64,000 bases of DNA, from assembly GCF_006912135.1 (NCBI RefSeq), contig NZ_VIRS01000005.1, positions 62,001 through 126,000 of the forward strand. The letters are read 5' to 3'. The position numbers and the translations under genes are program-made. Positions 2,955 to 62,966 of the stretch are shown one piece after another (the first letter of the stretch is position 1; the number at the start of each line of letters is the position of its first letter). Origin of the DNA: Cryptosporangium phraense (GTDB lineage: Bacteria > Actinomycetota > Actinomycetes > Mycobacteriales > Cryptosporangiaceae). Under the pieces are notes generated by a model. It had not been told where the DNA came from. It saw only the letters and a program-made list of their open reading frames with translations, and searched no databases.

Positions 2955-4385
2955 ATGACCGAACCGCAGCAGGCCGTCCGGCTCGTCGTCAGGCTGCTCG
3001 TCGCCAGCCTGACCGCGAGCGTCCTCTTCGCCGTGCTCACGCTGGTGTTCCGCCACGACGTGCTCGCGTATCAGCAGGCCCGCGACCCCGACGCCGACCC
3101 GGCGGCGCTGGCCGCGACGCTGTGGACGCGGCCGATCCCGATCCTCGTCGTCGCGGTGCTGTACGTCTGGGTGGCCCGGGGACTGCTGGCCGGGGCGGCC
3201 CGGGCGTACCGGCGGGTGCGGATCGTGTCGGTGGTCGGCTTCGTCGCGGTCGGGTGGCTGCTCCTGTCGGGCGCGTATCCGGGCTGGTTGCGTGGAGTGC
3301 AGGTGGTGCAGCTCGGCCTGCTGGCGGCGCTGATCGTCGCGGTGAACCGTCGGGTGGTGCGGGCGGCGTTTCCGGTGGTCCCGGATCCGCGGCCGCGCAA
3401 CCGGAAGGCGGCCTGGGCGCTGATCCTGCTGGCGCCGTTCGTGGCCGAGGTGAGCCTCGGGAACATCCCGCTGTCGCAGGCCTGGGCGGTGCTGGTCTTC
3501 GTGCCGATCTACGGCGGTGGCGCGCTGCTGATCCGGGAGGTGGTCCGGCGCACCGGCGGCGGGTTCGTGAGCGTGGTGATCCTGGGCGTGGCCTACGGGC
3601 TCGTGGAGGAGGGGCTGGTGCTGCAGAGCCTGACCAGCCCGCACCTGTACGGGGCGGCGGAGTGGGCGCCCCGGCTGTTCGGGGTGAACTCGGCGTACAC
3701 GCTGCTCAACCTCGTGTACCACCCGGTGTTCAGCATCGCGATCCCGATCGTGCTGGTCGAGATGCTGTTCGCGGAGCACGGCACGAAGCCGTACCTGCGG
3801 CGTGGCGGGCTGATCACGGCCGGGGTGGTGTTCGCGCTGGGGGCGGTGCTGATCCGGCTGACGGTTCCGGCGTCGGAGGATCCGGGCTACACGATGCCGC
3901 TCGCCGGGGTGGTGATCGTCGCGCTGCTCGCGGTGGCTCTGACCGTCGTCGGCGTCCGTGGGCGGTTCCCGCTGGCGACCGGGGACGGCGCGGTGCCGGG
4001 GGTCGGGGCGGTGGCCGGTCTGGCCGGGCTCGTCGCGTTCGGGTTCCTCGGGATGCTGTGGCCGCTGGCCGGGGCGAAGCACTCGCTGTTCCTGCCCGGC
4101 GGCGGGTGGCCGCTGCTGGCCGTGGCCGGGGCGGCGGCGCTGGTGGCCGCCGGTTCCTACGTCCTGCGCCGCTGGACCGGCTCGGCCGCCTGGACCCGCC
4201 GTCACACGCTCGCCGCCTGCTTCGGCGCGCTGGTCGGCCACACGCTCTTCGCGCTGGCCGGCAACGCCGACACGATCCCCGACGCGGTCTTCCTCGTCGC
4301 GATCGCGGCCGGGACCGGCGCGGTCGGCGCCCGCGCCCTCGGGTGGTCCGCACCGTGTCGATTCCGGCCGAGGCGGTTCGTGTAG
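2955..4385 (+). CDS. polytopic membrane protein, possibly CPBP-like
   Basis: A 476-residue protein with about twelve hydrophobic segments spread along its length. The centre contains GVAYGLVEEGLVLQSL, a paired-glutamate motif inside a membrane helix reminiscent of CPBP/Abi-type intramembrane proteases, with a later conserved-looking NLVYHPVFSIAIP. The usual EExxxR continuation is absent, so protease activity is not supported. It lies 66 bp downstream of the NarL-type pair on the same strand, with ATG 2955 the first good start. It may be a transporter, a sensor accessory or a protease-like protein; I do not recognise it firmly. Confidence 0.8.
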   Translation: MTEPQQAVRLVVRLLVASLTASVLFAVLTLVFRHDVLAYQQARDPDADPAALAATLWTRPIPILVVAVLYVWVARGLLAGAARAYRRVRIVSVVGFVAVGWLLLSGAYPGWLRGVQVVQLGLLAALIVAVNRRVVRAAFPVVPDPRPRNRKAAWALILLAPFVAEVSLGNIPLSQAWAVLVFVPIYGGGALLIREVVRRTGGGFVSVVILGVAYGLVEEGLVLQSLTSPHLYGAAEWAPRLFGVNSAYTLLNLVYHPVFSIAIPIVLVEMLFAEHGTKPYLRRGGLITAGVVFALGAVLIRLTVPASEDPGYTMPLAGVVIVALLAVALTVVGVRGRFPLATGDGAVPGVGAVAGLAGLVAFGFLGMLWPLAGAKHSLFLPGGGWPLLAVAGAAALVAAGSYVLRRWTGSAAWTRRHTLAACFGALVGHTLFALAGNADTIPDAVFLVAIAAGTGAVGARALGWSAPCRFRPRRFV

Positions 4386-4435
4386 GTGGTGAACCTGGGA
4401 GGCCGGGGCCTGGCCAACGCCGGCGACCTGCTGTT

Positions 4436-4465
4436 CGGCCGCCGTGCGCAGCCTGCACGCGGCCG
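4436..4465. terminator. hairpin between convergent genes
   Basis: A GC-rich stem (CGGCCGCCGTGC pairing with GCACGCGGCCG, one bulged C, 7-nt loop) sits between the stop of the membrane protein (4385) and the stop of the minus-strand gene (4469). It is placed to terminate transcription from both sides. There is no T-run, as is common in actinobacteria. Confidence 0.5.
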
Positions 4466-4468
4466 GAC

Positions 4469-5149
4469 CTACTCCTTCAGCGGCTGAGCGTCCTCGAACG
4501 TGGCCCGCATCCGCTCGATCCAGGTGCTGAGCACGACCGGCGCGCCGGGCAGCCCGAGCGCGGCCAGCTCCGCGCTGACCGGGTGCGACCCGAGGACCAC
4601 CGACACCCCCTCGCCGCCGAAGACGACCTGCGAGCCCGACCCGCCCTGGGTGAACGTCGTCCGGTGCGGGACGCCGTCGATCAGCGAGTACGTCGTCATC
4701 GGCGTCGGCGGGGTCTCGTCGGTGCCGCCGCGGGGCACTTGCAACGAGAACGCCAGCTCGCCGTCCAGATACAGGGTCCAGAGCGAGTCGTCGACGTCGA
4801 TGCGCTCGACCGTCTTCGGGAAGCCCCAGATCGTCCGGCCGGCCTCGCAGGTGAACTCCTGGTCGACCGGGAGGCGGGTGATGAACGTGCCGTCCTCGCC
4901 GCCGGACCGCGGCCGGACGAAGAACGTCAGCCCGACCTCGTGGTACGCGCCGAGGTCGTTGTCCCGGTAGTCGACGAGCACGACCGCCAGCTGCGCGACG
5001 CCCGGCCGGACCTCGATCACCTCGAAGTCCGCCGGGATCAGCGAGGCGGCGGCCGTGGCGTCCACGTCGAACAGCACGGTGCCCGCGGACGCGTCCCGGA
5101 CCTGGACCGGCATCGTCACCGGCTGTCCCGCGATCTCGTAGGTCGTCAT
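4469..5149 (-). CDS. acetoacetate-decarboxylase-family protein
   Basis: A 226-residue protein of the ADC fold. GRTIWGFPKTVERI (residues ~107-120) aligns with the family region carrying the Schiff-base lysine (GFPK). LAVVLVDYRDNDLGAYHEVGLTFFV and FITRLPVDQEFT are also typical. Family members decarboxylate beta-keto acids or act on related aldol/dehydration chemistry, so acetoacetate is not certain to be the substrate. ATG 5149 has a good ribosome site (GGAGGAG). It is the last gene of an operon with acyl-CoA dehydrogenase, MaoC-like hydratase and aldo/keto reductase genes, and a KstR-like palindrome lies directly upstream. A role in fatty-acid or steroid side-chain catabolism is inferred from context. 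Confidence 0.85.
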   Translation of the reverse strand: MTTYEIAGQPVTMPVQVRDASAGTVLFDVDATAAASLIPADFEVIEVRPGVAQLAVVLVDYRDNDLGAYHEVGLTFFVRPRSGGEDGTFITRLPVDQEFTCEAGRTIWGFPKTVERIDVDDSLWTLYLDGELAFSLQVPRGGTDETPPTPMTTYSLIDGVPHRTTFTQGGSGSQVVFGGEGVSVVLGSHPVSAELAALGLPGAPVVLSTWIERMRATFEDAQPLKE

Positions 5150-8181: not shown

Positions 8182-9185
8182 TTAGAGCGCGCTCGAAGTC
8201 AATGCCTGGATCTGGAGGTTCTCGGTGGGGAGGGTCTGGCAGGCCAGGCGCCAGCCGGCGGCCAGCTCGTCGGCCGAGAACACTCGGGCGACCTCTTCGG
8301 CGCGGTCGAGGAGGTCGGGGGTCGGGGGGCGTAGCCCGAGCGCATCGCGGGCGCCGCGGTCAGCTGAGCCTGAGCCGCCAGCACGAGCCCGGCCGCCGCC
8401 GCCCCGACCTCTGCCGCCTTCGGCCTCCGCCGCCGGGCCTCCACCGCCGGGGCCCCCGCCGCCGGGGCCCCCGCCGCTGCGGCCACCTCGGCATCGACCC
8501 CCGCCGCCACCTCGGCCGCCGCCACCTCGGCCGCCCCAGCCCCCGCGGCCGCGGGGGCGGTTGCGGTCGCCGCGGTCGGCGTCGCGGTCGCGGCGGCGGC
8601 TTCGGGCTGGGCCTTGGCGGTTGCGGGGCGACGCGGGTCGGGTTGGCGGGCTAGGGCGGCGGCCGGGCGCGCCTGGCCGCGCCGTGCGTGGCCGCGCCGC
8701 ACCTGCCGCCCGGCCCCGGCCGCGGCGACGCAGGCGTCGAAGAACTCGTCGTTGAGCGCGGCGAACACGGCGGCCGCGGTCGGCCCGTAGTTCAGCCCGT
8801 CACCGGCCGGCCCCCGCCACAGGCCGACCGACGCCGCCGGATCCTCCCGGAACGCGGCCAGATCCAACGTCCCGGAATCGGCGACGAAGAGATAGCCGTT
8901 TCCCCGTCGACGCAGGTACGACCCGGCGTCGTAGGACGGCCGCCCCGGCTCCAGCAGCCGGCGCAGAGCGCCCGCGTACTTCTGGACGACGTTGACCGCG
9001 CTGGCCGGAGCGTCGTCGTCCCAGATCAGACCGATCAGCTCGCTGGTGCTGACCGGGCGGCCGTAGTTGGCCAGCAGCAGCGCGAGCAGGAGGGCCTGCT
9101 GGCGCGGACCGGCGTCGAGTTCGACGTCGCCGCGCCAGACCCGCAACGGGCCGAGGATCTGGAACCGTAGCGCGGGCCCGGACAC
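8182..9185 (-). pseudogene. SARP/AfsR-type regulator with broken reading frame
   Basis: Residues ~1-95 from GTG 9185 form an OmpR-type winged helix of SARP regulators (FQILGPLRVWRGDVELDAG, RPVSTSELIGLIWDD, VNVVQKYAGALRRLLEPG), then the start of a BTAD domain ending near FFDACVAAA (residue ~155). From about 8725 down to 8350 the DNA becomes a low-complexity Gly/Ala/Pro-coding stretch in all frames. The starting frame runs on to a stop at 8199, but its last 40 residues look unlike protein. The frame two bases over gives sensible codons (RPPTPDLLDRAEEVARVFSA, then DELAAGWRLACQTLPTENLQ) and stops at 8182. The usual BTAD remainder is missing. This is either a decayed gene or an indel in hard-to-sequence GC-rich DNA. 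Confidence 0.6.
8350..8700. repeat. low-complexity GC-rich stretch (Gly/Ala/Pro-coding)
   Basis: Imperfect short repeats such as gccgccgggg-cccccgccgc and ccacctcggccgccg fill this interval. They read as Ala/Glu-rich, Gly-rich or Pro-rich peptides depending on frame and strand. They occupy the place where the SARP regulator's BTAD domain should be. Confidence 0.7.
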
Positions 9186-9198
9186 CCGGAAATCGTAC

Positions 9199-11268
9199 TC
9201 AGAACGCCAATTCGCTCGGTGGCGCGATGAAATTCTTGACCGGAAGGTTCGTCAGCGCCGACGCCAGCGTGTCCCGGGCGATGTCGATCGGGATCCGGGT
9301 GTTCGGCACCTCGTCCTGGTACTTGTCGGGGTTGGCGAGGAACGACGCGGCCGCCAGGTTCGGGGTGAAGCCGATGAACCAGGCCGCGTTGTCGTCGTCG
9401 GTGGTGCCGGTCTTGCCCGCCACCGGCCGGTCGATCGCCCGTCCGACGCTCTCCGCGGTGTCGGTGCCGCCCGGGTGCGTGCAGGAGATCCCGACCTCGG
9501 ACTGGTTCCCGACCGGGCACCGGGCCATGTCCGCGGCCGCGTCGGCCACCTCGGGCGAAAACGCCTGCTTGCAGGTCGGGTCGGCCACGCCCGCGACCGG
9601 CGTGCCGCTCCGGTCGCTGATCGACGTCAGCGGCAGCGTCGTGCAGGCCTTCCCGCGGGCCGCGACCGTCGCGTAGGCGTTGGCCATGTCGAGCGGCGAC
9701 ACCTGGGCGGTCCCGAGCGTGAACGAGCCCCAGGCCGCGTCGCTGGTCTGCGCGTCCTTCGCCAGGCCGAGGTCACCGGCACCGCGCAGGACGACCCCGG
9801 CCTGCTGGGCGGCCGCCACCGCGGCCTTCACCGTCACCTGCTCTTCGAGCTGGACGAAGTACGTGTTGGCGGATTCGCCGAATGCGCTCGACATCGTCTG
9901 ATCGCCGGTCATCGCCGGGGACGCGTTCTTCGGGCAGTACCGGTCGCCGCCGGTCGCGCAGTCGCCCGGGTACTGCGAGACGTACCGCTCGGGGGCGTAG
10001 ATCGTGTGACTGAGCGGGATGCCCTGCTGCAGCGCGGCCAGCGCGGTGAACATCTTGAACGTCGACCCGGCCTGGTAGCCGGGTGAGACCGCGGAACCGG
10101 ACAGCAGCGGGTTGACGGTGGCCCCGTCGCTGATCCCGTACTTCCGGTTGACCGCCATCGCCTTCACCCGTCCGGTGCCCGGTTCGACCAGCACGACGCC
10201 GGTCGCGAACCGGCTGTCCGCGCCGAGCTGGGCATCGACCTGCTGCTGGGCCGCCTTCTGCATGCCGACGTCGAGCGACGAGACGATCGAGTAGCCGCCC
10301 TTCTTCAGCTTGTCGAGGCGGTCGGCGGTGGTGGCACCGAACGCCGGGTTCGCCTGCCACCAGTCGAGGAACCAGCCGCAGAAGAACCCGTACGCGGTGT
10401 TGCCGTTCTCGCACGACTGGGCGCTGGTCTTCGGCTTCAGCCCGAGGTCACCGGCGTTGGCCGCGGCGGCCTGGGCCGCGGTGACGTACTTCAGCTTCAC
10501 CATCTGGTTGAGGACGTATTCGCGGCGGTCGAGTGCGGCCCGATGATCGTTCGCCACCGGGTTGTACTGGGTCGGGTTCTGGGCCATCCCGGCGATCATC
10601 GCCGCCTCGGCGAGCGTCAGCTGGGACGGCGGCTTGCTGAAGTAGGCCTCCGAGGCGGCGTAGATGCCGTAGCCGTTGTTCCCGAAGTACGTGATGTTCA
10701 GGTAGTTCTCGAGGATCTGGTCCTTGGACAGCTCGTGTTCGAGCGCGATCGCGTACCGGATCTCGCGGACCTTGCGCCCGGCCGTGTCCTCGGTCGCGAG
10801 CTGCTTCTCCTCGGCCGTGGTCGCCGCGTACTTCAGGCTGGCCCGGACGTACTGCTGGGTCAGCGTCGAGGCGCCCTGGGTCGCGCCGCCCTCGACCTCG
10901 TTGTTGACGAACGCCCGGACGACGCCCTTCAGGTCGACGCCCTCGTGGTCGTAGAACCGGTTGTCCTCGGCCGCGACGATGGCCTGCTGCATGACCTTCG
11001 CGATCTGGTTCAGCCCGACGTTCTTGCGGTTCTCGTCGTAGAACTCGGCGATCTCGGTCTTGCCGTCCGACGCGTACAGCGTCGAGGCCTGCGGGGCGGG
11101 CGGGAACTCGAGGTTCGTCGGCAGGTCGCTGAAGTCGTCCGAGGCCGTCTTGGCGGTGAGGCCGGCGAACGCCGTGGCCGGGAACGCCGCCGCGGCCACG
11201 ATGACGCCCGCGAGCGCGCCACACAGCAGCAGCGAAGCGAGCAGGTGTCGGTGGGGCGCCCGTTTCAT
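9199..11268 (-). CDS. class A penicillin-binding protein (transglycosylase/transpeptidase)
   Basis: A 689-residue bifunctional peptidoglycan synthase. An N-terminal membrane anchor (residues ~8-35) precedes a GT51 domain with AAEDNRFYDHEGVDLKGVVRA (catalytic Glu), GASTLTQQYVR, KVREIRYAIALEHELSKDQI and LNITYFGNNGYGIYAAS. The transpeptidase domain carries SxxK in AGSTFKMFTAL, SxN in ESANTYF and KTG in VAGKTGTTDD. It polymerises and cross-links glycan outside the membrane. The length is short of PonA-type proteins with PASTA or Pro-rich tails; it ends soon after the KTG box. ATG 11268 has only a weak ribosome site. The gene stands alone between unrelated neighbours. Confidence 0.96.
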   Translation of the reverse strand: MKRAPHRHLLASLLLCGALAGVIVAAAAFPATAFAGLTAKTASDDFSDLPTNLEFPPAPQASTLYASDGKTEIAEFYDENRKNVGLNQIAKVMQQAIVAAEDNRFYDHEGVDLKGVVRAFVNNEVEGGATQGASTLTQQYVRASLKYAATTAEEKQLATEDTAGRKVREIRYAIALEHELSKDQILENYLNITYFGNNGYGIYAASEAYFSKPPSQLTLAEAAMIAGMAQNPTQYNPVANDHRAALDRREYVLNQMVKLKYVTAAQAAAANAGDLGLKPKTSAQSCENGNTAYGFFCGWFLDWWQANPAFGATTADRLDKLKKGGYSIVSSLDVGMQKAAQQQVDAQLGADSRFATGVVLVEPGTGRVKAMAVNRKYGISDGATVNPLLSGSAVSPGYQAGSTFKMFTALAALQQGIPLSHTIYAPERYVSQYPGDCATGGDRYCPKNASPAMTGDQTMSSAFGESANTYFVQLEEQVTVKAAVAAAQQAGVVLRGAGDLGLAKDAQTSDAAWGSFTLGTAQVSPLDMANAYATVAARGKACTTLPLTSISDRSGTPVAGVADPTCKQAFSPEVADAAADMARCPVGNQSEVGISCTHPGGTDTAESVGRAIDRPVAGKTGTTDDDNAAWFIGFTPNLAAASFLANPDKYQDEVPNTRIPIDIARDTLASALTNLPVKNFIAPPSELAF

Positions 11269-11291: not shown

Positions 11292-12767
11292 TTAAGAATC
11301 AGCTGTTCGCGCCCAGGAAGCCGCGTGCCGGCCGCTCCGGCGGCCGAAGTACGACGCCTCCCCCATCTGCGTCCCGGACGCGTACCCCCGCCCGTCGATC
11401 GCGATGTTCGACGCGCACGCGCCGGCCGCGTACACCCCGGCCACCACCGAACCGTCGTCCCGGAGCAGCCGGCCGTCCGGATCGACCCGTAGCCCCCCGC
11501 AGCTGAACCCGGAGTAGAACGCGGTCCCCGGCGTGAGGTCGTACGCGCCCCACGGCCCCTGGTCGAGCGGGACCACGAACTTCGACGCCTTGTGGAACTC
11601 CGGGTCCTCGCCGCCGGCCGCGGCCGCGTTGTAGTCGCGCAGCGTGGCCACCAGCGCACCGGCCGGCATGCCCAGCGCCCGCTCGATCTCTTCGACCGTC
11701 TCCCACCCGTCGACCAGCGGCTGGAAGTGGTAGCTGGGCTCGGCCAGCGTCGCCGAGTCGAGGATCAGGTAGGCGGTCTGCCCGGGCTGGTCGAAGACGT
11801 AGGCCGACACCCGCGAGTGATACGCGTCCTCGTTGACGAAGCGGCGGCCGTCCCGGTTGACGACGATCCCCCGGACGTTCCCCTCCGGCGGATAGAACGG
11901 CGACGTGAAGAACGCGCTCTCCATGTGGTCGGCGACGCCACCCACCGACTCGCCGAGCCGGATGCCGAGCCCGTCGTCGTAGGTGTTCCCGAGCGCCATC
12001 CCCCGGGTGAACAGGGCCCCGAGCTGCGGCGCGTACGCCTCGACCATCTCCGGGTTGAGCACGAACCCGCCGGCCGCCAGCACCACTCCCCGCGCGGCGA
12101 TGGCCCCGGATTCGGAGTACCGGCGCCAGGTCGCCCCCACGACCGAGCCGTCCCGCACTACCAACCCCGTCGCCCCGGTGTCGTACCGGACCTCGACGCC
12201 CAGGTCGGCCAGCCGCTTGAGCGCCAGCTCGACGACGAATCCCCCGCCGCCGGTGTCGCCGACGAACGGGGGCTTGTGGCCCCGCGGCGCGGGACGGGCG
12301 ATCGTCCGGACCGGCCAGGTGAGCTCGTTGCCGGTGAACGTCAGGCCCTCGGTGCCGGGCTGGACGACGCATTTGTGCGGGTAGAACGAGCGCTCGAACT
12401 CGAAGCCCAGCGCCTCCAGCCACTCGAAGTGCTCGACGCTCTCCTCGGCGTAGAGCCGGATCTTCTCCGGGTCGCACTCCGGTGACATCTCGCGCAGGTA
12501 GGCGGCCATCTCGGCCGGGGTGTCGTCCCAGCCGCAGGCCCGCTGCACCGCGGTGCCGCCGCCGAGGTAGAAGTGGCCCCCGGACATCGCGCTGGTGCAG
12601 GTCAGCCGCCCGCCCCGGTCGATGACCAGCACCCGGGCCCCGGCGGCGGCCGCGTCGACGGCGGCGCTGACCCCGGCCATGCCCGCGCCGACCACCAGCA
12701 CGTCGACCTCGTCGGACCACCCGGTCACCGCGTCCGCCGCGATCGGCCGCACCGCCTCCACGCGCAC
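11292..12767 (-). CDS. FAD-dependent 3-ketosteroid-dehydrogenase-like oxidoreductase
   Basis: A 491-residue flavoprotein. The N-terminal FAD motif VDVLVVGAGMAGVSAAVDAA (residues ~23-42) is followed by the TSAMSGGHFYLGGGT block. A fumarate-reductase/KstD-like middle has PYVGD-like KPPFVGDTGGGGFVV and VLAAGGFVLNPEMV, and the C-terminal FAD segment is GVYAAGACASNIAIDGRGYASGTQMGEASYFGRRSG. The length and GRGYASG end favour the ketosteroid dehydrogenase group (delta1- or 5alpha-delta4-type) over fumarate reductase. GTG 12767 is 11 bases from a KstR-like box, which supports a steroid or terpenoid catabolic role. The exact bond oxidised cannot be read from sequence. Confidence 0.85.
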   Translation of the reverse strand: MRVEAVRPIAADAVTGWSDEVDVLVVGAGMAGVSAAVDAAAAGARVLVIDRGGRLTCTSAMSGGHFYLGGGTAVQRACGWDDTPAEMAAYLREMSPECDPEKIRLYAEESVEHFEWLEALGFEFERSFYPHKCVVQPGTEGLTFTGNELTWPVRTIARPAPRGHKPPFVGDTGGGGFVVELALKRLADLGVEVRYDTGATGLVVRDGSVVGATWRRYSESGAIAARGVVLAAGGFVLNPEMVEAYAPQLGALFTRGMALGNTYDDGLGIRLGESVGGVADHMESAFFTSPFYPPEGNVRGIVVNRDGRRFVNEDAYHSRVSAYVFDQPGQTAYLILDSATLAEPSYHFQPLVDGWETVEEIERALGMPAGALVATLRDYNAAAAGGEDPEFHKASKFVVPLDQGPWGAYDLTPGTAFYSGFSCGGLRVDPDGRLLRDDGSVVAGVYAAGACASNIAIDGRGYASGTQMGEASYFGRRSGRHAASWARTADS

Positions 12768-12845: not shown

Positions 12846-13598
12846 GTGCGCCACCTGAACACGCTCGTCGACTTCCTGGCCCGGCGTGACGTCGAGGCCC
12901 TGACGCCGGAGGCGCTCGGCGGCCCGGTCGACGTCCTGATCCTGTTCGGCGGCAGCATCCTGGCCGGCGGCGACGTCTTCGCGTCGGCGATCGAGGCCGG
13001 CGCGGCCCAGCGGTACCTCGTCGTCGGGGGCGCCGGGCACTCCACCGACGCGTTGCGCGATGCCGCCCGCACCGAGCTGGGCTGGGACGACGTCGACGAC
13101 CGGACCGAGGCCGACCTCTTCGACCGCTACCTCCGCGAGCGGCACGGCCTGCCCGCCGACCTGCTCGAGACCCGGTCCACGAACTGCGGCAACAACGTCC
13201 GGAACGCGCTCGCCGTGCTCGCCGCGGCCGGCGTCGCGCACCGCCGGATCGCGATCGTCCAGGACGCCTCGATGCAGCTGCGGATGCACGCCTGCTTCCG
13301 GCACGAGGCCCCGGAGGTCGAGGTCGTCAACTACGCGGCCCACCGGACGCACTTCGACGGGCTCGCGCTCGTCGATCCGCCCTTCGGCATGTGGCCGAGC
13401 GACCGCTACATCGGGTTGCTGCTCGGCGAGATCCCTCGCCTCTCCGACGATCCGGACGGCTACGGGCCGGCCGGCCGCGGCTTCATCGCCCACGTCGACA
13501 TTCCGGACGACGTCCGGCAGGCGCATTCCGCGCTGATGGACGCCGGTGTCGGCGCCACCAGGGTCGCCGATCCGCGCTTCAGCCGACCACTCCGCTGA
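12846..13598 (+). CDS. DUF218/YdcF-like protein
   Basis: A 250-residue cytoplasmic protein. VDVLILFGGSILAGGDVFASAIE (residues ~24-46), YLVVGGAGHSTDALRD and the ETRSTNCGNNVRNALAVLAA block are the DUF218 pattern, with the Asn-rich helix in place of ETxSxNTxEN. Family members such as YdcF and ElyC bind nucleotides or act in envelope metabolism, but here there is no signal peptide. GTG 12846 begins the homology. It is divergent from the flavoprotein and its last 20 bases overlap the end of the convergent PaaX-like gene. The biochemical role is unknown. Confidence 0.8.
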   Translation: MRHLNTLVDFLARRDVEALTPEALGGPVDVLILFGGSILAGGDVFASAIEAGAAQRYLVVGGAGHSTDALRDAARTELGWDDVDDRTEADLFDRYLRERHGLPADLLETRSTNCGNNVRNALAVLAAAGVAHRRIAIVQDASMQLRMHACFRHEAPEVEVVNYAAHRTHFDGLALVDPPFGMWPSDRYIGLLLGEIPRLSDDPDGYGPAGRGFIAHVDIPDDVRQAHSALMDAGVGATRVADPRFSRPLR

Positions 13599-14391
13599 CG
13601 TAGGCGTGCGCCCGCGGTAGCACCTGGTCGCGGAGCTGCAGGAAGAGTGCGGTGGAGCGGTGGCCGGGCCAGTCGGCGGGGAGTAAGGAGGCCGGGAGGC
13701 CGGGGTCGAGGTAGGGGATGATCCGCCAGCGGTCGAGGCCGCGGATCCAGGCGCGGTAGGCCTCGGCCAGGTCGTCCGGTGCGCCGGTGCCGTCCGTGCC
13801 GTCGGTGCCGGCGCCGTCGAGGAACGCGTCGTGGCGCGCCCGGATCGACGCCAGGTCCCACCACCGCTCCACCTGCGGCCCGCCGCGGATCTCGTCCGCC
13901 AGGAAGACCGTCGCGGTGAGCCCCAGCTCCGCCAGGATCTCCTCGACCTCCGTGGTCAGATACTCCGGGCAGATCCACAGCGCCGGCGACACCGCACCGC
14001 ACCCGATCCAGGTCAACCGGCGACGCAGCTGGTGACGCAGGTCGCGGTTCGACTCCGGCACCGAGTACGAGACCAGGCACCACCGGTCGGCCGGGCCCAT
14101 TGTGCGGGGGTGGTAGATCCGCCGGTCACCGCGCTCGAGCATCGGCACCGCGTCCGGGGCCAACGCGTAGCCGGCCACGCCCCGGCGGGCCTCGGCCACC
14201 AGCAGGCCCTTGGCCTTGAGGCGGGCCAGCGCGGTCCGGGTCCGGGGTTCGGGCAGGCCGGCCGCACCGGCCAGCGCGACCAGGTGCGCGACCGCGATCC
14301 AGCCGCCGATCCGGCGCAGCGACGTCCCGACGATCGTGCGCAGCAGCGACGTCGTGCTCCCGGGCGACGAGTCCCAGTCGTCGTGGATCAT
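13579..14391 (-). CDS. PaaX-family transcriptional regulator
   Basis: A 270-residue regulator. An N-terminal winged helix (SLLRTIVGTSLRRIGGWIAVAHLVALAGAAGL..TRTALARLKAKGLLV) leads to the PaaX central and C-terminal domains (DRRIYHPRTMGPADRWCLVSYSVPE; LRRRLTWIGCGAVSPALWICP; ALFLQLRDQVLPRAHAYV). PaaX proteins repress phenylacetyl-CoA or other aromatic catabolic genes in response to CoA thioesters. The ATG overlaps the stop of tryptophan 2,3-dioxygenase (ATGA), so the two proteins are made together; this suggests feedback on tryptophan breakdown. No paa genes are in the window. Confidence 0.9.
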   Translation of the reverse strand: MIHDDWDSSPGSTTSLLRTIVGTSLRRIGGWIAVAHLVALAGAAGLPEPRTRTALARLKAKGLLVAEARRGVAGYALAPDAVPMLERGDRRIYHPRTMGPADRWCLVSYSVPESNRDLRHQLRRRLTWIGCGAVSPALWICPEYLTTEVEEILAELGLTATVFLADEIRGGPQVERWWDLASIRARHDAFLDGAGTDGTDGTGAPDDLAEAYRAWIRGLDRWRIIPYLDPGLPASLLPADWPGHRSTALFLQLRDQVLPRAHAYVSGVVG

Positions 14392-18690: not shown

Positions 18691-19452
18691 CTACTCCACA
18701 GTGGGCAAAGCCGTGAGGCTGCGGTGGACCTCGGGGCGGCGGCGGTTCCAGGAGCCGACGATGTGGGTGCGCATCAACACGGCGACGCCGTCGGCGTCGC
18801 CGGCCCGGATCAGCGCCTCGATCTGACGGTGCTCGGCCATCGACTGTTCCTGGTCGGCCCGGGTCGGCGTGCCGTTGTAGCGGCTGGACAGGCGGGCCTT
18901 GCTGTGGATGCTGTGAATGATCGCGTGCCCGAGGCGGTTCCCGGACGCGACCATGATCAGCTCGTGGAAGGCCACGTCCTCGGCGGCGTAGGCCCCGGCG
19001 TCGTCGAGGAGGTCGGCGAGGACGTCGAGTTGGTCGGCCAGTTCCTGCTGCTGGGGGGCTTTGATGGTTCGGGCCGTCGCGGCGGCCATGTCGCTCTCCA
19101 GGGCCGCTCGGACGCTGATCAGATCGTCGAGGATCTTGAGTTCGCGGTCGTGGCGGATCTGGGCCTCGAGGACGATCGGGTCGAGCAGGTTCCAGCCCGG
19201 GGGTTCGAGGACCCGGGTGCCGCGGCCGGGGGTCGCGCGGACGAGTCCTTTTTCTTCGAGGAGCTTGATCGACTCGCGGACGACGGTGCGGGAGACGCCG
19301 AATTCTTCGCAGAGTTCGGGTTCGGTGGGGAGGGCGCTGTCGACGGGGTAGTCGGCGGAGACGATGCGGTCGACGAGGTACGTGACCACGGTGTCGCCGA
19401 GCCGGCCGGATCGACGGGGGCGTATCGGCCCGAGCGAGCTACCGAAGTCCAT
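18691..19452 (-). CDS. FadR-subfamily (FCD) GntR transcriptional regulator
   Basis: A 253-residue regulator. The GntR winged helix at residues ~20-85 includes LPTEPELCEEFGVSRTVVRESIKLLEEKGLV and PGRGTRV. The all-helical FCD ligand domain follows (ILDDLISVRAALESDMAAATA; DVAFHELIMVASGN; EHRQIEALIRAGDADGVAVLM, with the metal-binding His/Asp pattern). It typically senses small organic acids and controls a neighbouring catabolic gene. It could control the P450 45 bases downstream on the same strand. A short palindrome upstream of its ATG may be autoregulatory. Confidence 0.9.
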   Translation of the reverse strand: MDFGSSLGPIRPRRSGRLGDTVVTYLVDRIVSADYPVDSALPTEPELCEEFGVSRTVVRESIKLLEEKGLVRATPGRGTRVLEPPGWNLLDPIVLEAQIRHDRELKILDDLISVRAALESDMAAATARTIKAPQQQELADQLDVLADLLDDAGAYAAEDVAFHELIMVASGNRLGHAIIHSIHSKARLSSRYNGTPTRADQEQSMAEHRQIEALIRAGDADGVAVLMRTHIVGSWNRRRPEVHRSLTALPTVE

Positions 19453-19469
19453 TGCGGCAGCTTACGTTA

Positions 19470-19482
19470 TTCATATGATGAA
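19470..19482. promoter_or_regulatory. candidate operator upstream of the FadR-type gene
   Basis: TTCAT-atg-ATGAA, an AT-rich palindrome in very GC-rich DNA, lies 18-30 bases upstream of the regulator's ATG. GntR-family operators are often such short palindromes. Confidence 0.35.
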
Positions 19483-20007
19483 GTGGGGTGCTGGGCTTGA
19501 GGGGTGTGGCCTGGCAGTGGCGCTCGTGGGGTCGTCTGTCAGTAGGTGAGGGTGCGCGGGCTTGAGGGCGTCCTCAGCCGCCACGGTTGGGCCATGAGAA
19601 GCACATGGCGGCTTCGGGGCGCATCGTCTCCGCGGCCGACCGCCGCCGGCGCCGAGCGCCCCGGCAGCATTCCGGCGCTGGGTTCACCGGTCGCGGGTCG
19701 GCGCGGGTGGCCCTATTCGGCGGGGTCGCGTTTCCTCGTATGCGGGTCGCGCGTCGGGCTCGGCCGCCGCGGCCTCGCGGTGATGTACGACTCGGACGAT
19801 CGTTGCGGCCGAGGAAACGCGATCCCGAATTGGCGAGAGAGGCAGGCCGGCCGCGGCGATCGGCCCGGCATCGCGGACGCGGACGCGGAGGCGGACGCGG
19901 AGGCGCTGGCCGCGGCCGCGATCCGGCGGATTACGAAAGGGGCGTACGCGTCGCTCGGCCGTGGAGCGGAGCGAATACGCTGCTGCTGGCCGCGGAGGGC
20001 GGGGCGC

Positions 20008-20095
20008 CGGCCACACACCCGCGCAGAAGCGGGCCACACACCGCGGAAGCGGGCCACACACCCGCGCGGAAGCGGGCCACACGCCTGCGCGGGAG
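20008..20095. repeat. four-copy tandem repeat of 20-23 bp
   Basis: Four successive units share the core CGGGCCACACACCCGCG and end in GGAAG or GGGAG. Lengths vary between 20 and 23 bases, so no reading frame is kept. Confidence 0.75.
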
Positions 20096-20214
20096 CGGGT
20101 TCCTAGCGGTGTGCGCTCGTCATGAGATGAGCTGATGGCGATCGCGGTGTGGCGCGCGCGCCGCTGACCGACAGGGGCTCACGGCCGCACCTGCCGTTGG
20201 GCGCCGCCGAAACC

Positions 20215-20975
20215 AGCGGCGGGCGCGGCCGTAGCCGACGGTGGGGCGACCGCCGTCGACGGCGGGGCGGCCCCAGTCGAGTGTTCGGGCGGCCCGTATC
20301 CGGCAGTGGGCGCGGCCTCAGTCGACCGCGGGCGCGGGCCCCAGCCGGCGGTAGGCGCGGCGGTAGCCGACCGCGGGCCTGGGCCCAGTCGGCTGCGCGG
20401 TCCTAGCCGACGGTGAGCGCGGCCCTAGCGGGCGGTGGGGCGACCGCAGTCGACGGCGGGGCGGGCCCTAGCCGGGGCCCGTAGCCGACGGCGGGCGCAG
20501 CCGTAGCCGACAGCGGGCGCAGCCGTAGCAGACGGCGGGCGCAGCCGTAGCAGACGGCGGGCGCAGCCGTAGTCGACGGTGGGTTCCGCCCCAGCCGGCG
20601 CTGGGCGCGGCCGCAGCCGACAGCGGGGCGACCCCTAGCCAGGGCCCGTAGCCGACGGCGGGCACAGCCGTAGCCGGGGCCCGTATTCGACGGCGGGCGC
20701 GGCCGTAGCCGATGGCGGGCGCGGCCGTAGCCGACGGTGGGTTCGGCCCAGCCGGCGCTGGGCGCGGCCGCAGCCGACGGCGGGGCCACCGCAGCCGACA
20801 GCGGGGCGACCCCTAGCCAGGGTCCGTAGCCGACGGCGGGCGCGACCGCAGCCGACAGCGGGGCGGGCCCTAGCCGGGGCCCGTAGCCGACGGCGGGCGC
20901 GGCCGTGGCCGACGGTGGGTTCGGCCCAGTCGGCGGCGGGCGCGACCGTAGCCGGCGGCTGGGGCGACGGCAGCC
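20215..20975. repeat. degenerate 22-bp minisatellite-like array
   Basis: About 35 tandem units. The consensus unit begins GACGGCGGGCG and ends CGGCCGTAGCC (22 bases). Most copies are 21-23 bases. Several 13-base partial units ending in CCCGTAGCC are interspersed, always after a unit ending CCTAGCC. A higher-order block of about 160 bases is duplicated near 20574-20690 and 20733-20890. As 22 is not a multiple of three, the reading frame rotates with each unit, so this is best read as non-coding. There are no unique spacers, so it is not a CRISPR array. Confidence 0.85.
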
Positions 20976-21073
20976 GGCGGCGGGGGCCGGGCTCGGTGGA
21001 TGGAGCGGCCGGGGGTCGGGAACGCCGGGTGGGGCGGGCCGGCCCCCGAGGCTCCCGAGGCTCCGGGGCGGGC

Positions 21074-22012
21074 TCAGGTCGTCTTGGCGGACTTCTTCGC
21101 GTTGAGCTTGTCTCGGCGCTCGGAGAACCGGGTCGCCTGCCGGTCGAGCTCAGCCAGAAACTCGACCAGCTCATCCCGAGCCTTCTCGCCGTCCGCAGAC
21201 AATCCCGCCGTCTCCAGCACCTTCAAATTACGCAACACCGGCACCACCACCTCGTCGTGGTGGATCCGCAGGTCGTAGATGCCGGCCATCGCGATCTGGA
21301 CCGACTTCCGGCCGAAGTTCTCGATCGTGTGCCCGGGCATCTGGAACGTCCGGACCACATCGGTGACCGCACGCATCGCCAGGTCGGGGGCCAGCTCGAA
21401 CGCGGCCCCGAGCAGGTTGCGGTAGAAGATCATGTGCAGGTTCTCGTCGGCGGCGACGCGGGCCAGCAGCTGGTCACAGATCGGGTCGTCGCTGATCCGG
21501 CCGGTGTTGCGGTGCGACACCCGGGTCGCCAGCTCCTGGAACGACACGTAAGCGATCCCGTGCAGCGCGGTGTCGTCGAGGTAGGCGTTCTCGAAGCCGG
21601 TGCCCATGTGCACCATCCGGGCCCGCTCCAGCGCGATCGGGTCGACCGCCCTGGTCGTCAGCAGGTAGTCGCGGATCGCGATGCCGTGCCGGCCCTCCTC
21701 GGCGGTCCAGCGGTGGACCCAGGTGCCCCAGGCCCCGTCGCGGCCGAACAGCGTCGCGATCTCGTGGTGGTAGCTGGGGAGGTTGTCCTCGGTCAGCAGG
21801 TTCACGATCAGCGACGTCCGCGCGACGTCGGAGAGCGTGGACTGCTCCTCGGCCCACGCCTGGCCGCCGAGGACGCCGTCAAAGTCGGTGCCCTGGCTCC
21901 ACGGGACGTACTCGTGCGGGAACCACTCCTTGGCCGTGGCGAGATGCCGGTTCAGGTTCGTTTCCACGACCGGTTCGAGCTCGCGGAGTAAATCGGTCGT
22001 CGACAGGGTCAT
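21074..22012 (-). CDS. acyl-[ACP] desaturase (diiron, DesA type)
   Basis: A 312-residue soluble desaturase inserting a double bond into acyl-ACP. Diiron ligands: Glu in LLTEDNLPSYH, the EExxH motif in TAEEGRHGIAIRDYLL and the second ExxH in RVAADENLHMIFYRNL. Length fits the mycobacterial DesA1/DesA2 family. ATG 22012 is preferred because GGAG lies six bases before it; ATG 22030 is possible but touches the operator palindrome. The C-terminal tail is Lys-rich. No partner ferredoxin is nearby. Control is probably by a TetR-type repressor at the palindrome. Confidence 0.92.
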   Translation of the reverse strand: MTLSTTDLLRELEPVVETNLNRHLATAKEWFPHEYVPWSQGTDFDGVLGGQAWAEEQSTLSDVARTSLIVNLLTEDNLPSYHHEIATLFGRDGAWGTWVHRWTAEEGRHGIAIRDYLLTTRAVDPIALERARMVHMGTGFENAYLDDTALHGIAYVSFQELATRVSHRNTGRISDDPICDQLLARVAADENLHMIFYRNLLGAAFELAPDLAMRAVTDVVRTFQMPGHTIENFGRKSVQIAMAGIYDLRIHHDEVVVPVLRNLKVLETAGLSADGEKARDELVEFLAELDRQATRFSERRDKLNAKKSAKTT

Positions 22013-22026
22013 CCCGTACTCCAGCA

Positions 22027-22054
22027 GCATAGGTTACGTCTCCGTAACCTACGC
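22027..22054. promoter_or_regulatory. palindromic operator at the desaturase start
   Basis: AGGTTACG (22031-22038) and CGTAACCT (22043-22050) pair perfectly around TCTC. The arms extend to 12 bases (GCATAGGTTACG against CGTAACCTACGC) with one mismatch. The site lies directly upstream of the desaturase start region, where a repressor dimer would block transcription. Confidence 0.6.
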
Positions 22055-22091
22055 TACCGTAGAATTGCCCGTCCGGCTCGGCCGGACGGAG

Positions 22092-22610
22092 TCAGGTCAG
22101 GGTCTTGAACGTCCACACCTGGTTCTGGCCGCCGTTGCAGGTGAACTGAAGCAGCGCGGCCCCGTTGTCCGTGCTGGCGTTCTTCACCGTCAGGCAGAGC
22201 TTGCTCTTCTCGTTGATGATCCGGTAGTTGTCGAAGCGCCACAGCTCGTTGGCACCGAGCGTGCAGTCGTACTGAATGACGGGCGCGTTGGATTTCAGGG
22301 ACGCGTTCAGCACGGTCAGGCACTTGCCGTTGAAGTTGCTCCAGAGTTCCCAATCCTCGGTGCCGTGCTTCTCGGCCCAGAACTCCTGCTCGGACGTGGG
22401 CGGATTGTGGCAGGGCCAGATGATCATCTGGACGCCGTTGTCGGGTGACGCGTTGGGATCGGCGATGCACTTGCCGGACGGCGAGCCGATGATCTGATAG
22501 AGGCCGTAGACGAGCCCCGGGGCGGCCACGGCCGGCGACGGCACCAGGAACACCGCCGTGGCCAGCAGGACCGCCAGGGCGACGGCGGATCGAAAGGACG
22601 ACTTTCGCAT
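22092..22610 (-). CDS. secreted ricin-type beta-trefoil lectin
   Basis: A 172-residue exported protein. The signal peptide spans residues ~1-30 (VALAVLLATAVFLVPSPAVAA). The rest is one beta-trefoil with three repeats, each with a Cys pair and a QxW-like end: GKCIADPNAS..EQEFW, GKCLTVLNAS..NELWRF, KLCLTVKNAS..NQVWTF. Such domains bind galactose or other sugars. There is no catalytic domain, so it acts as a stand-alone lectin. GGAGGGCTCG precedes ATG 22610; the frame is open further upstream but has no start there with a signal peptide. Confidence 0.9.
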   Translation of the reverse strand: MRKSSFRSAVALAVLLATAVFLVPSPAVAAPGLVYGLYQIIGSPSGKCIADPNASPDNGVQMIIWPCHNPPTSEQEFWAEKHGTEDWELWSNFNGKCLTVLNASLKSNAPVIQYDCTLGANELWRFDNYRIINEKSKLCLTVKNASTDNGAALLQFTCNGGQNQVWTFKTLT

Positions 22611-22686
22611 CGAGCCCTCCTCAGTGGAGTGGTCGCCGCCCATCATCGGGGCGCGGACGACCGCCGTCCAGAGTGGAGAGTCGAGG

Positions 22687-23436
22687 CTAGGACCGGGGAC
22701 GTAGACGGAGGCCCTGCATGCCGCCGTCGACCGCCAGTTCGGTGCCGGTCGTCGACCCGGCTCGTGGGGACGCCAGGTACACGACGGCCTGGGCCACCTC
22801 GTCCGCGGAGACCAGGCGCCCGTGCGGCTGGCGGGCCTCCAGCGCGGCCCGCTCGGCCGCCGGATCGGGCGCGCTGTCGAGCAGACGCCCGACCCAGGGT
22901 GTGTCTGCCGTACCCGGATTGACCGCGTTGACACGGATCCCGTCGGGCATTCCGTCGGCCGCCATCGCCCGGGTCAGCGCCGAGATCGCGCCCTTGCTGG
23001 CCGAGTAGATCGCGCGCTGCGGCAGGCCGGCCGTCGACGCCACCGAGGCCGTGTTCACGATCGCCGGATGCTCGGACTTCCGCAGGTGCGGCCAGGCCGC
23101 CCGGGAGACCCGCGCGGTGCCGACGACGTTGACGTCGAGCACGCGGTGCCACTCGTCGTCGGTGCTGTCTTCGACCGAGCCCTGGGCGCCCACGCCCGCG
23201 TTGTTGACCAGGACGTCCAGGCCTCCGAGCGCGTGCACCGCCTCGTCGACCGCGGCCCGTACGGCGTCGTCGTCGGACAGATCGGCGCGGACGTAGACGA
23301 CGTCGGCCGGGCCGGCGTCGGACCGATCGAGGACGGCCACCTGGGCACCTTCGTTCCGGAAGGCGGTGGCGATCGCCAGACCGATGCCCGACGCACCGCC
23401 GGTGACCAGCGCCTTCAGGCCGGACAGGGCCGCCAC
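22687..23436 (-). CDS. short-chain dehydrogenase/reductase
   Basis: A 249-residue SDR. Cofactor motif TGGASGIGLA (residues ~12-21), acidic residue VLDRSD for NAD preference, LVNNAGVG, Ser in VNTASVAS, and catalytic YSASK (residues ~150-154). GTG 23436 is one base past the hydrolase stop, so the genes form one operon (IclR, FAH-type hydrolase, SDR). A sugar-acid or hydroxy-acid substrate is plausible, since FAH-type hydrolase plus SDR pairs occur in fucose/arabinose-type oxidative pathways; this is inference. Confidence 0.92.
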   Translation of the reverse strand: MAALSGLKALVTGGASGIGLAIATAFRNEGAQVAVLDRSDAGPADVVYVRADLSDDDAVRAAVDEAVHALGGLDVLVNNAGVGAQGSVEDSTDDEWHRVLDVNVVGTARVSRAAWPHLRKSEHPAIVNTASVASTAGLPQRAIYSASKGAISALTRAMAADGMPDGIRVNAVNPGTADTPWVGRLLDSAPDPAAERAALEARQPHGRLVSADEVAQAVVYLASPRAGSTTGTELAVDGGMQGLRLRPRS

Positions 23437-23437
23437 C

Positions 23438-24271
23438 TCAGGCCTGCCGGAACGTCTGGCGCTGCCGGCCGAGGCCAGTGATCTCGAGTTCGACGACGTC
23501 GCCGTCGCGGAGGAACGCGCCGTCGGCGCGGCCCAGCGCCACCCCGGCCGGGGTGCCGGTGTTGATGACGTCGCCGGGGTACAGGGTCATGAACTGACTC
23601 AGGTACCAGACGACGTGCGCGACGCCGAAGATCTGGTTCTTGGTGTTGCCGTTCTGCCGGAGGTCGCCGTTGACCCAGAGGCGCAGCTCCAGGTCCTGCG
23701 GGTCGGAGACGTCGTCGGACGTGGTGATCCAGGGCCCGAACGGGTTGAACGTCTCGCAGTTCTTGCCCTTGTCCCACTGGCCGCCGCGCTCGGTCTGGAA
23801 CGCGCGCTCGCTGACGTCGTTGCTGATCGCGTAGCCGGCCACGTGCTCCAGCGCGTCGTCCGGGGACGCCAGGTAGCGGGCCGTGGAGCCGATGACGATC
23901 GCCAGCTCGACCTCGTAGTCGGTCTTCACCGAGGTGCGCGGAATGAGCACGTCGTCGTTCGGGGCGTTGACCGTGTCGGGCGCCTTCATGAACAGGATCG
24001 GCTCGGCCGGCGGCGTCGCGCCGGTCTCCTCGGCGTGATCGGTGTAGTTCAGCCCGATGCAGAGGATCTTGCCGATTCCGGCCAGCGGCGGGGCGAACGT
24101 CTCCGGGGCGTCCACCGCCGGGAGGTCGGCGGTCCGGATCGCGGCCAGCGCCTCGGGCGCCAGCACCGCGGGCGTCACGGCCGCATGCAGCGGACGCAGG
24201 TCGTACCACTGGTCGTCGCGGTGGACGAGCGGCAGGTCGCCGTCGGCGGTGCGGGCGTGAGCGAGGCGCAT
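23438..24271 (-). CDS. fumarylacetoacetate-hydrolase-family protein
   Basis: A 277-residue FAH-fold enzyme. ILCIGLNYTDHAEETG (residues ~69-84) and LFMKAPDTVNAPND are the family entry. Metal ligands lie in KTDYEVELAIVIG, and VAGYAISNDVSERAFQ, KGKNCETFNPFGPWI and FMTLYPGDVINTGTPAGV complete it. Members hydrolyse C-C bonds of 2,4-diketo acids or dehydrate/decarboxylate related compounds; 2,4-diketo-3-deoxy-sugar acids are a common substrate. ATG 24271 has GAGGG upstream; a TTG at 24286 is less likely. It lies 23 bp downstream of the IclR regulator. Confidence 0.9.
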   Translation of the reverse strand: MRLAHARTADGDLPLVHRDDQWYDLRPLHAAVTPAVLAPEALAAIRTADLPAVDAPETFAPPLAGIGKILCIGLNYTDHAEETGATPPAEPILFMKAPDTVNAPNDDVLIPRTSVKTDYEVELAIVIGSTARYLASPDDALEHVAGYAISNDVSERAFQTERGGQWDKGKNCETFNPFGPWITTSDDVSDPQDLELRLWVNGDLRQNGNTKNQIFGVAHVVWYLSQFMTLYPGDVINTGTPAGVALGRADGAFLRDGDVVELEITGLGRQRQTFRQA

Positions 24272-24294
24272 GCGGACGTCCCTCAAATTCTCAT

Positions 24295-25044
24295 TCAGTG
24301 AGACTTGATCTCACTGGCTTGGATCGACCCTAGCCCGGCGAAGCCGAGGCTGGCAGAAATTCGGGCGGCCGCGTCGCGGACGCGGGGACCGATCTGGTCG
24401 ATCACCGGGTCCATCCGCTCGGCCACCCCGGCGACGCTGAGTGCGCCGACCGGCTCACCGGTGTGGTCGCGGATCGCCGCGCCGCAGCAACAGCTCGACG
24501 GGTCGTATTCCCGCCGGTCGTCGGACCAGCCCCGGACCCGCACGACGTCGAGCTTCTCCCGCAGGCCGGGGGCTTCGAGGCCGGCGAGCAGGTCGTCGAG
24601 CCGGGCGGCCGGAAGCGCGGCCAGGTAGGCACGGCCGACCGACGTGTTGTGGAACGGGCGGGTCGAGCCGGGATGGGCCGCCACGCTGACCGTGCGCAGC
24701 GGCTGCTCACGGGCCAGGAACACCATCTCGGTGCCGTTCGGCACCGCGAGGTTGGCGGTCTCCCCGGTCTCGGCGACCAGCTCGCGCAGCACCGGGATCG
24801 CGACGTCACGGAGGTTGACCGACTCGATCGCGGCCGCGGCGAGCTGGGCCGCGGTGGGGCCCAGCCGCACCGGGCCGCCGTGGCCCTCGCTGATCAGCCA
24901 GCCCTCGTCGCGGAGCCGGTCGACCAGGCGGTAGGCGGTGGCCCGGCTGAGGCCGAGCGCGTCGGCGATCTCGGGGACGCTCAAGCGCCGGTGCTGAGCG
25001 AGCAGGCGCAGGATGCCGAGGCCACGGTCGAGCGCACCGATCAT
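24295..25044 (-). CDS. IclR-family transcriptional regulator
   Basis: A 249-residue regulator. The N-terminal winged helix (residues ~1-60) reads ALDRGLGILRLLAQHRRLSVPEIADALGLSRATAYRLVDRL. The C-terminal IclR effector domain includes ETGETANLAVPNGTEMVFLA, STRPFHNTSVGRAYLAAL, SCCCGAAIRDHTGEPVGALSVAG. The Cys triplet in that last block is typical of the ligand pocket. It heads an operon with the FAH-type hydrolase and SDR, and probably senses their substrate. Confidence 0.93.
   Translation of the reverse strand: MIGALDRGLGILRLLAQHRRLSVPEIADALGLSRATAYRLVDRLRDEGWLISEGHGGPVRLGPTAAQLAAAAIESVNLRDVAIPVLRELVAETGETANLAVPNGTEMVFLAREQPLRTVSVAAHPGSTRPFHNTSVGRAYLAALPAARLDDLLAGLEAPGLREKLDVVRVRGWSDDRREYDPSSCCCGAAIRDHTGEPVGALSVAGVAERMDPVIDQIGPRVRDAAARISASLGFAGLGSIQASEIKSH
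24296..24316. promoter_or_regulatory. inverted repeat at the IclR/FAH boundary
   Basis: CAGTGAGA (24296-24303) pairs perfectly with TCTCACTG (24309-24316) around CTTGA. It overlaps the IclR stop and lies 25-45 bases before the hydrolase start. It could be an operator for a second promoter or an mRNA hairpin tuning expression between the two genes. Confidence 0.5.
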
Positions 25045-61652: not shown

Positions 61653-62966
61653 ATGCAGCTGATTCCTTCTCGCGTCGCCCATCTGGCCAGCGCTTACAAG
61701 GTGCTGAAGGCCCCCGCGGTCGCCGGACCCGAGGCGCAGCGCGACCCCGCGGTCATCGCCCGGGTCAGCGAGATGTTGTCCACGATCGAGCGCGACGGCA
61801 TGGACGCCGTCCTGCGGTACGCCCGGGAGCTGGACGGCTGGGACAGAGACGATGTCGAGATCGATCCGGCCACCCCGGCCGGTGACGCGCTCACCCCAGA
61901 ACTCCGGGCCGCGCTGGAACTCGGCCAGCAGCGCACCGAGGCGTTCGCCCGGCTGTCCCGCGAGAAGCTCGTCGACTTCGAGGCCGAGCTCGTGCCCGGC
62001 CTGACCGTCGGGCACCGGTACATCCCGATCGCCCGGGTCGGCGCGTACCTGCCTGCCGGCCGGTTCCCGTTGCTGGCCAGCGCGTTCATGACGGTCAACG
62101 TGGCCAAGGTGGCCGGCGTCCCGACCGTCGTCGCCTGCACTCCGCCGCAGCCGGACGGCCGGCCGAACCCCGCGGTCCTCTACGCGGCGCAGATCTCGAA
62201 GGCCGACCGGATCTTCTGCCTCGGCGGCGTCCAGGCGCTGGCCGCGATGGCGTTCGGGCTGCTCGGCGAGCTCCCCGTCGACATGCTCGTCGGCGCAGGC
62301 AACGCCTACGTGGCGGAAGCGAAGCGTCAGCTGTTCGGGACGGTCGCGATCGACCTGCTGGCCGGCCCGTCCGAGGTCGCGGTGATCGCCGACGAGACCG
62401 CCGACGTCGAACTGGTGGCGGCCGACCTGCTGGGCCAGGCCGAGCACGGACCGGACAGCCCGGCCGCGCTCGTCACGACGTCGGAGGAGCTGGCCACCGC
62501 GGTCATCGCCGAGGTCGACCGGCAGCTGGAGACGCTGGCCACCAACGGCATCGCGGGCCCGGCCTGGCGCGACCACGGCAGCGTCGTCTGGGCCGAGGAC
62601 CGGGAGACCGCGGTCGCGCTGATGGACGAGTTCGCGCCGGAGCACCTCGAGGTGCACACCGCCGACGACGACTGGTACTGGGGCGCGCTGCGCAACTACG
62701 GCTCCCTGTTCCTGGGGCACGCGAGCACGGTTGCATACTCGGACAAAGGAATGGCGGGCACGAACCACGTATTACCGACCGCTGGCGGCGCCCGGCACAG
62801 TGCCGGACTCTCGGTCTCCCGCTTCCTCAAGCCGCTGACGTACCAGCGGGTGACGCCCGGCGCCACCCCCGACCTCGCGGTCGCGGTCGACGAGATGTCG
62901 GCCTACGAGGGCATGGCGGCCCACCGGGCGACGGCGACGCTCCGCCTCGACCGCTGGCCGGCCTGA
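61653..62966 (+). CDS. histidinol-dehydrogenase-like dehydrogenase (catabolic paralogue)
   Basis: A 437-residue enzyme of the HisD fold. Blocks: VGAYLPAGRFPLLASAFMTVNVAKVAGVP, LGGVQALAAMAFG, VDMLVGAGNAYVAEAKRQLFG, zinc/catalytic AEHGPDSPAALVT, EFAPEHLEVHT, YSDKGMAGTNHVLPTAGGARHSAG and YEGMAAHRATATLRL. Catalytic Glu-His (PEHLEVH) and zinc-site residues are kept. No other his genes are nearby; a divergent LysR and a following ABC importer point to a catabolic alcohol dehydrogenase, as for HpsN (sulfopropanediol dehydrogenase). The natural substrate is unknown. Confidence 0.88.
   Translation: MQLIPSRVAHLASAYKVLKAPAVAGPEAQRDPAVIARVSEMLSTIERDGMDAVLRYARELDGWDRDDVEIDPATPAGDALTPELRAALELGQQRTEAFARLSREKLVDFEAELVPGLTVGHRYIPIARVGAYLPAGRFPLLASAFMTVNVAKVAGVPTVVACTPPQPDGRPNPAVLYAAQISKADRIFCLGGVQALAAMAFGLLGELPVDMLVGAGNAYVAEAKRQLFGTVAIDLLAGPSEVAVIADETADVELVAADLLGQAEHGPDSPAALVTTSEELATAVIAEVDRQLETLATNGIAGPAWRDHGSVVWAEDRETAVALMDEFAPEHLEVHTADDDWYWGALRNYGSLFLGHASTVAYSDKGMAGTNHVLPTAGGARHSAGLSVSRFLKPLTYQRVTPGATPDLAVAVDEMSAYEGMAAHRATATLRLDRWPA

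Follow-up and report, generated by a model that had tools for sequence, protein, structure and literature searches.

The window, the 64-kb stretch of DNA analysed here, covers positions 62001–126000 of a 321-kb contig (contig 5), has a GC content of 72.4% and belongs to a draft assembly of 87 contigs totalling 8.46 Mb; the genomes of the three congeners measure 9.2–9.6 Mb. Gene calling by codon usage leaves an intergenic gap of 1,621 bp at 19453–21073, between two ordinary genes on the minus strand. These are a GntR/FCD-family transcriptional regulator at 18691–19452 (Pfam FCD, 8.4e-22; GntR, 3.8e-19) and a fatty-acid desaturase at 21074–22030 (FA_desaturase_2, 4.1e-75). The gap holds a tandem array at 20215–20975, which spans about 770 bases and has the desaturase as its upstream neighbour, on the same strand. 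The original prediction had placed the array in the largest gene-free stretch, and the gap is indeed the longest in the region of the window; of the 582 gaps counted over the sampled 1.26 Mb, one alone is longer.

The gap contains a few other elements. Tandem Repeats Finder (TRF) reports an unrelated 23-bp array at 20009–20099 (unit GGCCACACACCCGCGCGGAAGCG, 4.1 copies) and a small 12-bp array at 19872–19905 (unit CGCGGAGGCGGA, 2.8 copies). An inverted repeat, CGGGGTCGCGTTTCCTCG / CGAGGAAACGCGATCCCG, lies at 19721–19738 and 19810–19827, with 17 of 18 positions paired and the arms 71 nt apart; no further occurrence of this close pair was found in the genome, and no role was found for it. Within the gap, tblastn detected no remnants of congener genes. 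At the array itself there was no match to Rfam, to intrinsic terminators or to sigma-70 promoters.

The array consists of 37 units with the consensus GACGGCGGGCGCGGCCGTAGCC (TRF, self-match and unit splitting), close to the 35 or so first estimated. By splitting, 23 units are of 22 bp, six of 21, two of 23, five of 13 and one of 18 bp. The units abut directly, as expected from the earlier description of an array lacking unique spacers; a CRISPR array was rejected, as the repeats are not parted by such spacers. TRF reports overlapping arrays at 20217–20985 with periods of 22, 44, 57 and 178 bp, the base period being 22. The self-match at lag 22 is 0.555, a level that 200 Markov shuffles, scanned over lags 1 to 60, do not reach (0.430 at the highest), and no other 771-bp stretch of the 64-kb window comes near the array's self-match. 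Head-to-tail copies of a unit within the 10–100 bp range, repeated beyond chance, are what is expected of a minisatellite.

The 13-bp units, which start at 20474, 20641, 20676, 20819 and 20876, correspond to 22-bp units minus the first nine bases. They had been described as recurring at regular places after units ending in CCTAGCC; this holds for four of the five, the exception being the unit at 20676, which is preceded by GTAGCC. Conservation is uneven along the unit, with AG at columns 21–22 and GGG at columns 8–10 almost invariant. This pattern could reflect selection; shared descent of the units can also produce it.

The repeats are organized at more than one level. A higher-order period of 178 bp (2.7 copies, 80% matches, score 571 in TRF) corresponds to a block that occurs first at 20575–20732 (158 bp), again at 20733–20910 (178 bp), and a third time, as its first units only, at 20911–20975. 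The second copy repeats the unit order of the first, with further units inserted, and contains an internal duplication of 57 bp (22+13+22) at 20797–20853 and 20854–20910, recovered by TRF as a 57-bp period with 88% matches. Just before the first block, at 20487–20574, four near-identical units, GACGGCGGGCGCAGCCGTAGCC, stand in a run that is the most homogeneous part of the array; a TRF call at 20479–20627 with 82% matches covers it. Within one level, units differ at about a quarter of positions or less, while divergence is smaller between homologous units of the two blocks, several of which are identical. The recurrence of units in the same order, the 57-bp duplication and the pattern of divergence together indicate that tandem duplication proceeded stepwise and on several scales. 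Two earlier observations, that a block of about 160 bases is duplicated and that the array has grown in steps, are thus borne out by the block boundaries and by the layered periods of 22, 57 and 178 bp.

To locate the unit elsewhere, a 26-mer spanning the unit junction was searched in 397 genomes of the order, including its own. The own genome gave 10 forward matches, and 10 of 11 matches there, or nearly all, fall in the array, the remainder being single strays; every other genome gave at most one scattered match per strand. No second array of the unit exists elsewhere in its own genome, and as an array the unit is absent from the three congeners and from the 396 other genomes of the order. 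Plasmid contigs and viral contigs gave no match to the array. Weak DNA matches in the own genome, where inspected, were coding or unrelated GC-rich sequence, and the best congener DNA match (G001 C23) was located among 18- and 54-bp repeats of coding type. The unit is therefore local in origin and not dispersed as a family, again as in a minisatellite.

Of the species compared, this one alone has the gap as well. A conserved promoter block of the regulator, upstream of its gene at 19465–19484 on the minus strand (plus-strand sequence TACGTTATTCATATGATGAA), is kept in all three species in which the sequences were placed side by side, namely this one and two congeners. The block contains the near-palindrome TTCATATGATGAA and is probably the regulator's own operator. 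Homology to the congener loci, as determined by blastn, ends at about 19486, just past this block. Two congeners have the regulator, and in each the gene upstream of it lies at 85–105 bp; the gene downstream of the desaturase in congeners either overlaps it or sits 21 bp off. Regulator and desaturase are more than 600 kb apart in a complete congener genome, or one of the two genes is missing. The close and different neighbours in the congeners, together with the end of homology near 19486, identify the gap as a lineage-specific breakpoint spacer.

Genes for an SDR dehydrogenase, an FAA hydrolase and an IclR regulator, which here lie beyond the desaturase, stand no more than about 7 kb from the regulator in two congeners, indicating that a former cluster has been interrupted by the desaturase and its neighbour. 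In the window (18691–25044), the desaturase and a ricin-B-type lectin domain protein sit between the regulator and the SDR/FAA/IclR set; in one congener this set also has an enolase-superfamily gene and a solute-binding gene. Recurrent arrays 3′ of other desaturase genes were not seen: of the homologous loci checked, just four carried a tandem repeat of at least 60 bp within 1.5 kb, and in none was it made of the array's unit.

Tandem arrays in other gaps were surveyed in 1.26 of the 8.46 Mb (15% of the genome), made up of 20-kb pieces and the window, and in 0.46 Mb of one congener. Genes were called by codon usage with a simple caller, and some arrays with triplet periods may thus be coding. 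Tandem repeats cover 15.9% of gaps of at least 1 kb, 10% of gaps of 600–1000 bp and 1–2% of gaps below 600 bp; in Markov shuffles the cover is about 0.1–0.2% in the two longer classes. The sampled part of the congener shows the same trend of repeat cover with gap length. Arrays with non-triplet periods (8, 16, 17, 22, 23, 26, 31, 38, 43, 53, 65, 112 and 178 bp) occur in 15 gaps, and their units are essentially unrelated, with a few marginal cross-similarities only. The gap of the 20215–20975 array holds the most repeat sequence, 948 bp, followed by gaps with 624, 610 and 508 bp. Layered arrays with unrelated units were also seen in the long gaps of L186 (G000:C5:1-20000; 11547–12534 and 13003–13715), L165 (G000:C1:380001-400000; 8669–9948) and L175 (G000:C11:180001-200000; 4102–5108), with periods of 53/81, 43/54, 22/65/34 and 16/112.

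On this evidence the array is very probably a neutral, non-coding minisatellite that grew within a new spacer through slippage and unequal exchange. A chromosomal rearrangement would have joined the GntR-family regulator, with its operator, to the fatty-acid desaturase, leaving a spacer of about 1.6 kb that neither genes nor known elements use. Within it, replication slippage or unequal exchange would have made tandem copies of a GC-rich 22-base word. The copies would then have drifted by point mutation and by small deletions, giving units of 13, 18 and 21 bp, and whole multi-unit blocks (57 bp and about 160–178 bp) would have been copied again later. Simple slippage was one of the roles listed in the original prediction, and it is favoured by the layered periods, by a unit unique to the locus and by the unrelated arrays in other long gaps. 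As a counterpoint to neutrality, the array is the largest non-coding one sampled and is atypical in size. None of the tests called for a function, though the array may have one. By all features tested, the array, known from one genome, would be classed as a minisatellite.

The alternative that each unit is one site of a protein-binding array (an iteron, partition or nucleoid-protein site) is improbable. A period of 22 bp is known from plasmid iterons (PMC3350403), and some columns of the unit are strongly conserved. The unit lengths, however, vary between 13, 18, 21, 22 and 23 bp, there is neither a second array in the genome nor one in the congeners, no plasmid matched, and the scan of neighbouring proteins, which covered a subset of the window's open reading frames, turned up no family with a role in replication or partition. 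It had been proposed that the 22-base period, as two helical turns, would place a repeated site on one face of the DNA. This does not hold: with 10.5 bp to a turn, each copy shifts the register by 34° for a 22-bp unit and by 86° for a 13-bp one, and the unit starts are incoherent at this period (R = 0.17, Rayleigh p of about 0.33). The proposed roles as a protein-binding array or chromosome-organising site likewise find no support, as neither this genome nor any relative searched has a further array of the unit, and the arrays in many of the genome's other gaps are built from unrelated units.

A structural RNA in the 3′ untranslated region of the desaturase is highly improbable. Transcription of the desaturase runs on into the array, on the same strand, and in many units the minus strand reads GGC-UACG-GCC, which makes a short stem closed by a stable tetraloop; such a hairpin could stop or protect transcripts. 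The consensus pairs are formed in 87% of cells. Against this, no pair shows compensatory change on both sides, and shuffled sequences pair equally well. The minus-strand fold is no better than that of shuffles (z −0.70) and the plus-strand fold only slightly better (z −1.82), and the searches of Rfam families and intrinsic terminators described above were negative. G-quadruplex motifs are absent from both strands of the array, which is fewer than in shuffles.

There is very little chance that the array is the remnant of a coding repeat from a low-complexity, Pro/Ala/Arg-rich protein. On the minus strand the unit is free of stops, which allows open reading frames of up to 179 aa across parts of the array, but the period of 22 is not divisible by three. 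In addition, the open reading frames of the gap have codon log-odds of −0.03 to −0.13 per codon, compared with +0.26 to +0.30 in real genes, show no GC3 excess and have no Pfam match. The array was said to lack a frame, and this agrees with the negative log-odds and with the finding that neither strand has a frame open across the whole of it. An assembly artefact, conceivable in a draft of 87 contigs, is just as remote, since the array lies deep inside the 321-kb contig and its units have diverged; no exact repeat inside it exceeds 43 bp, which is below common short-read length, and a short-read assembly could resolve it.

The neutral minisatellite favoured here has well-described counterparts. 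Prokaryotic satellites with repeats of 10–30 nt are well documented, and very often they have arisen spontaneously, with sequences that have no relative elsewhere (PMC6749651). High-GC actinomycetes can carry tens of them per genome; in Streptomyces coelicolor, 38 satellites, or 4.2 per Mb, were counted under the criteria of that survey (PMC6749651). The present array resembles bacterial minisatellites and VNTR loci in its head-to-tail unit of 10–30 nt, its non-coding position and its locus-unique sequence, while it is longer and more worn than most and has a clear second level of duplication. With plasmid iterons of the 22-bp kind it shares unit length and direct orientation. In the example of this kind, a Corynebacterium plasmid has seven 22-bp iterons downstream of repW (PMC3350403), whereas the array has 37 units of varying length on a chromosomal contig, and the neighbouring proteins that were scanned include no Rep. 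REP/BIME palindromic-unit clusters and other small dispersed repeats are similar in being short intergenic repeats; the array, in contrast, stands at one locus, is not dispersed, and its unit does not form a conserved palindrome.

The locus offers a caution: eye-catching as its 22-bp units are, and tempting as their fit to the helix is, the array belongs to a class of local, mutually unrelated arrays that is common in this genome, and is the largest of them in the sample. It is conceivable, though doubtful, that the long spacers of the genus, possibly left by recent rearrangements, are seedbeds where unrelated minisatellites form and expand unusually fast, and that such arrays mark young breakpoints; the link between array and breakpoint comes from one locus, 20215–20975. 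If the excess of arrays in long gaps is a trait of the genus, the birth and decay of bacterial minisatellites would be easy to study here. The locus could in that case also become a strain-typing marker, a use to which minisatellites with a repeat length of at least 20 bp are put (PMC2884548). A separate repeat seen in the survey, in L181 (G000:C12:100001-120000; 1140–2789), has six copies of a 276-bp unit that are 86% alike and have open frames; it is a long repeat within a probable gene and, from its sequence, may be HAMP/sensor-kinase-like.
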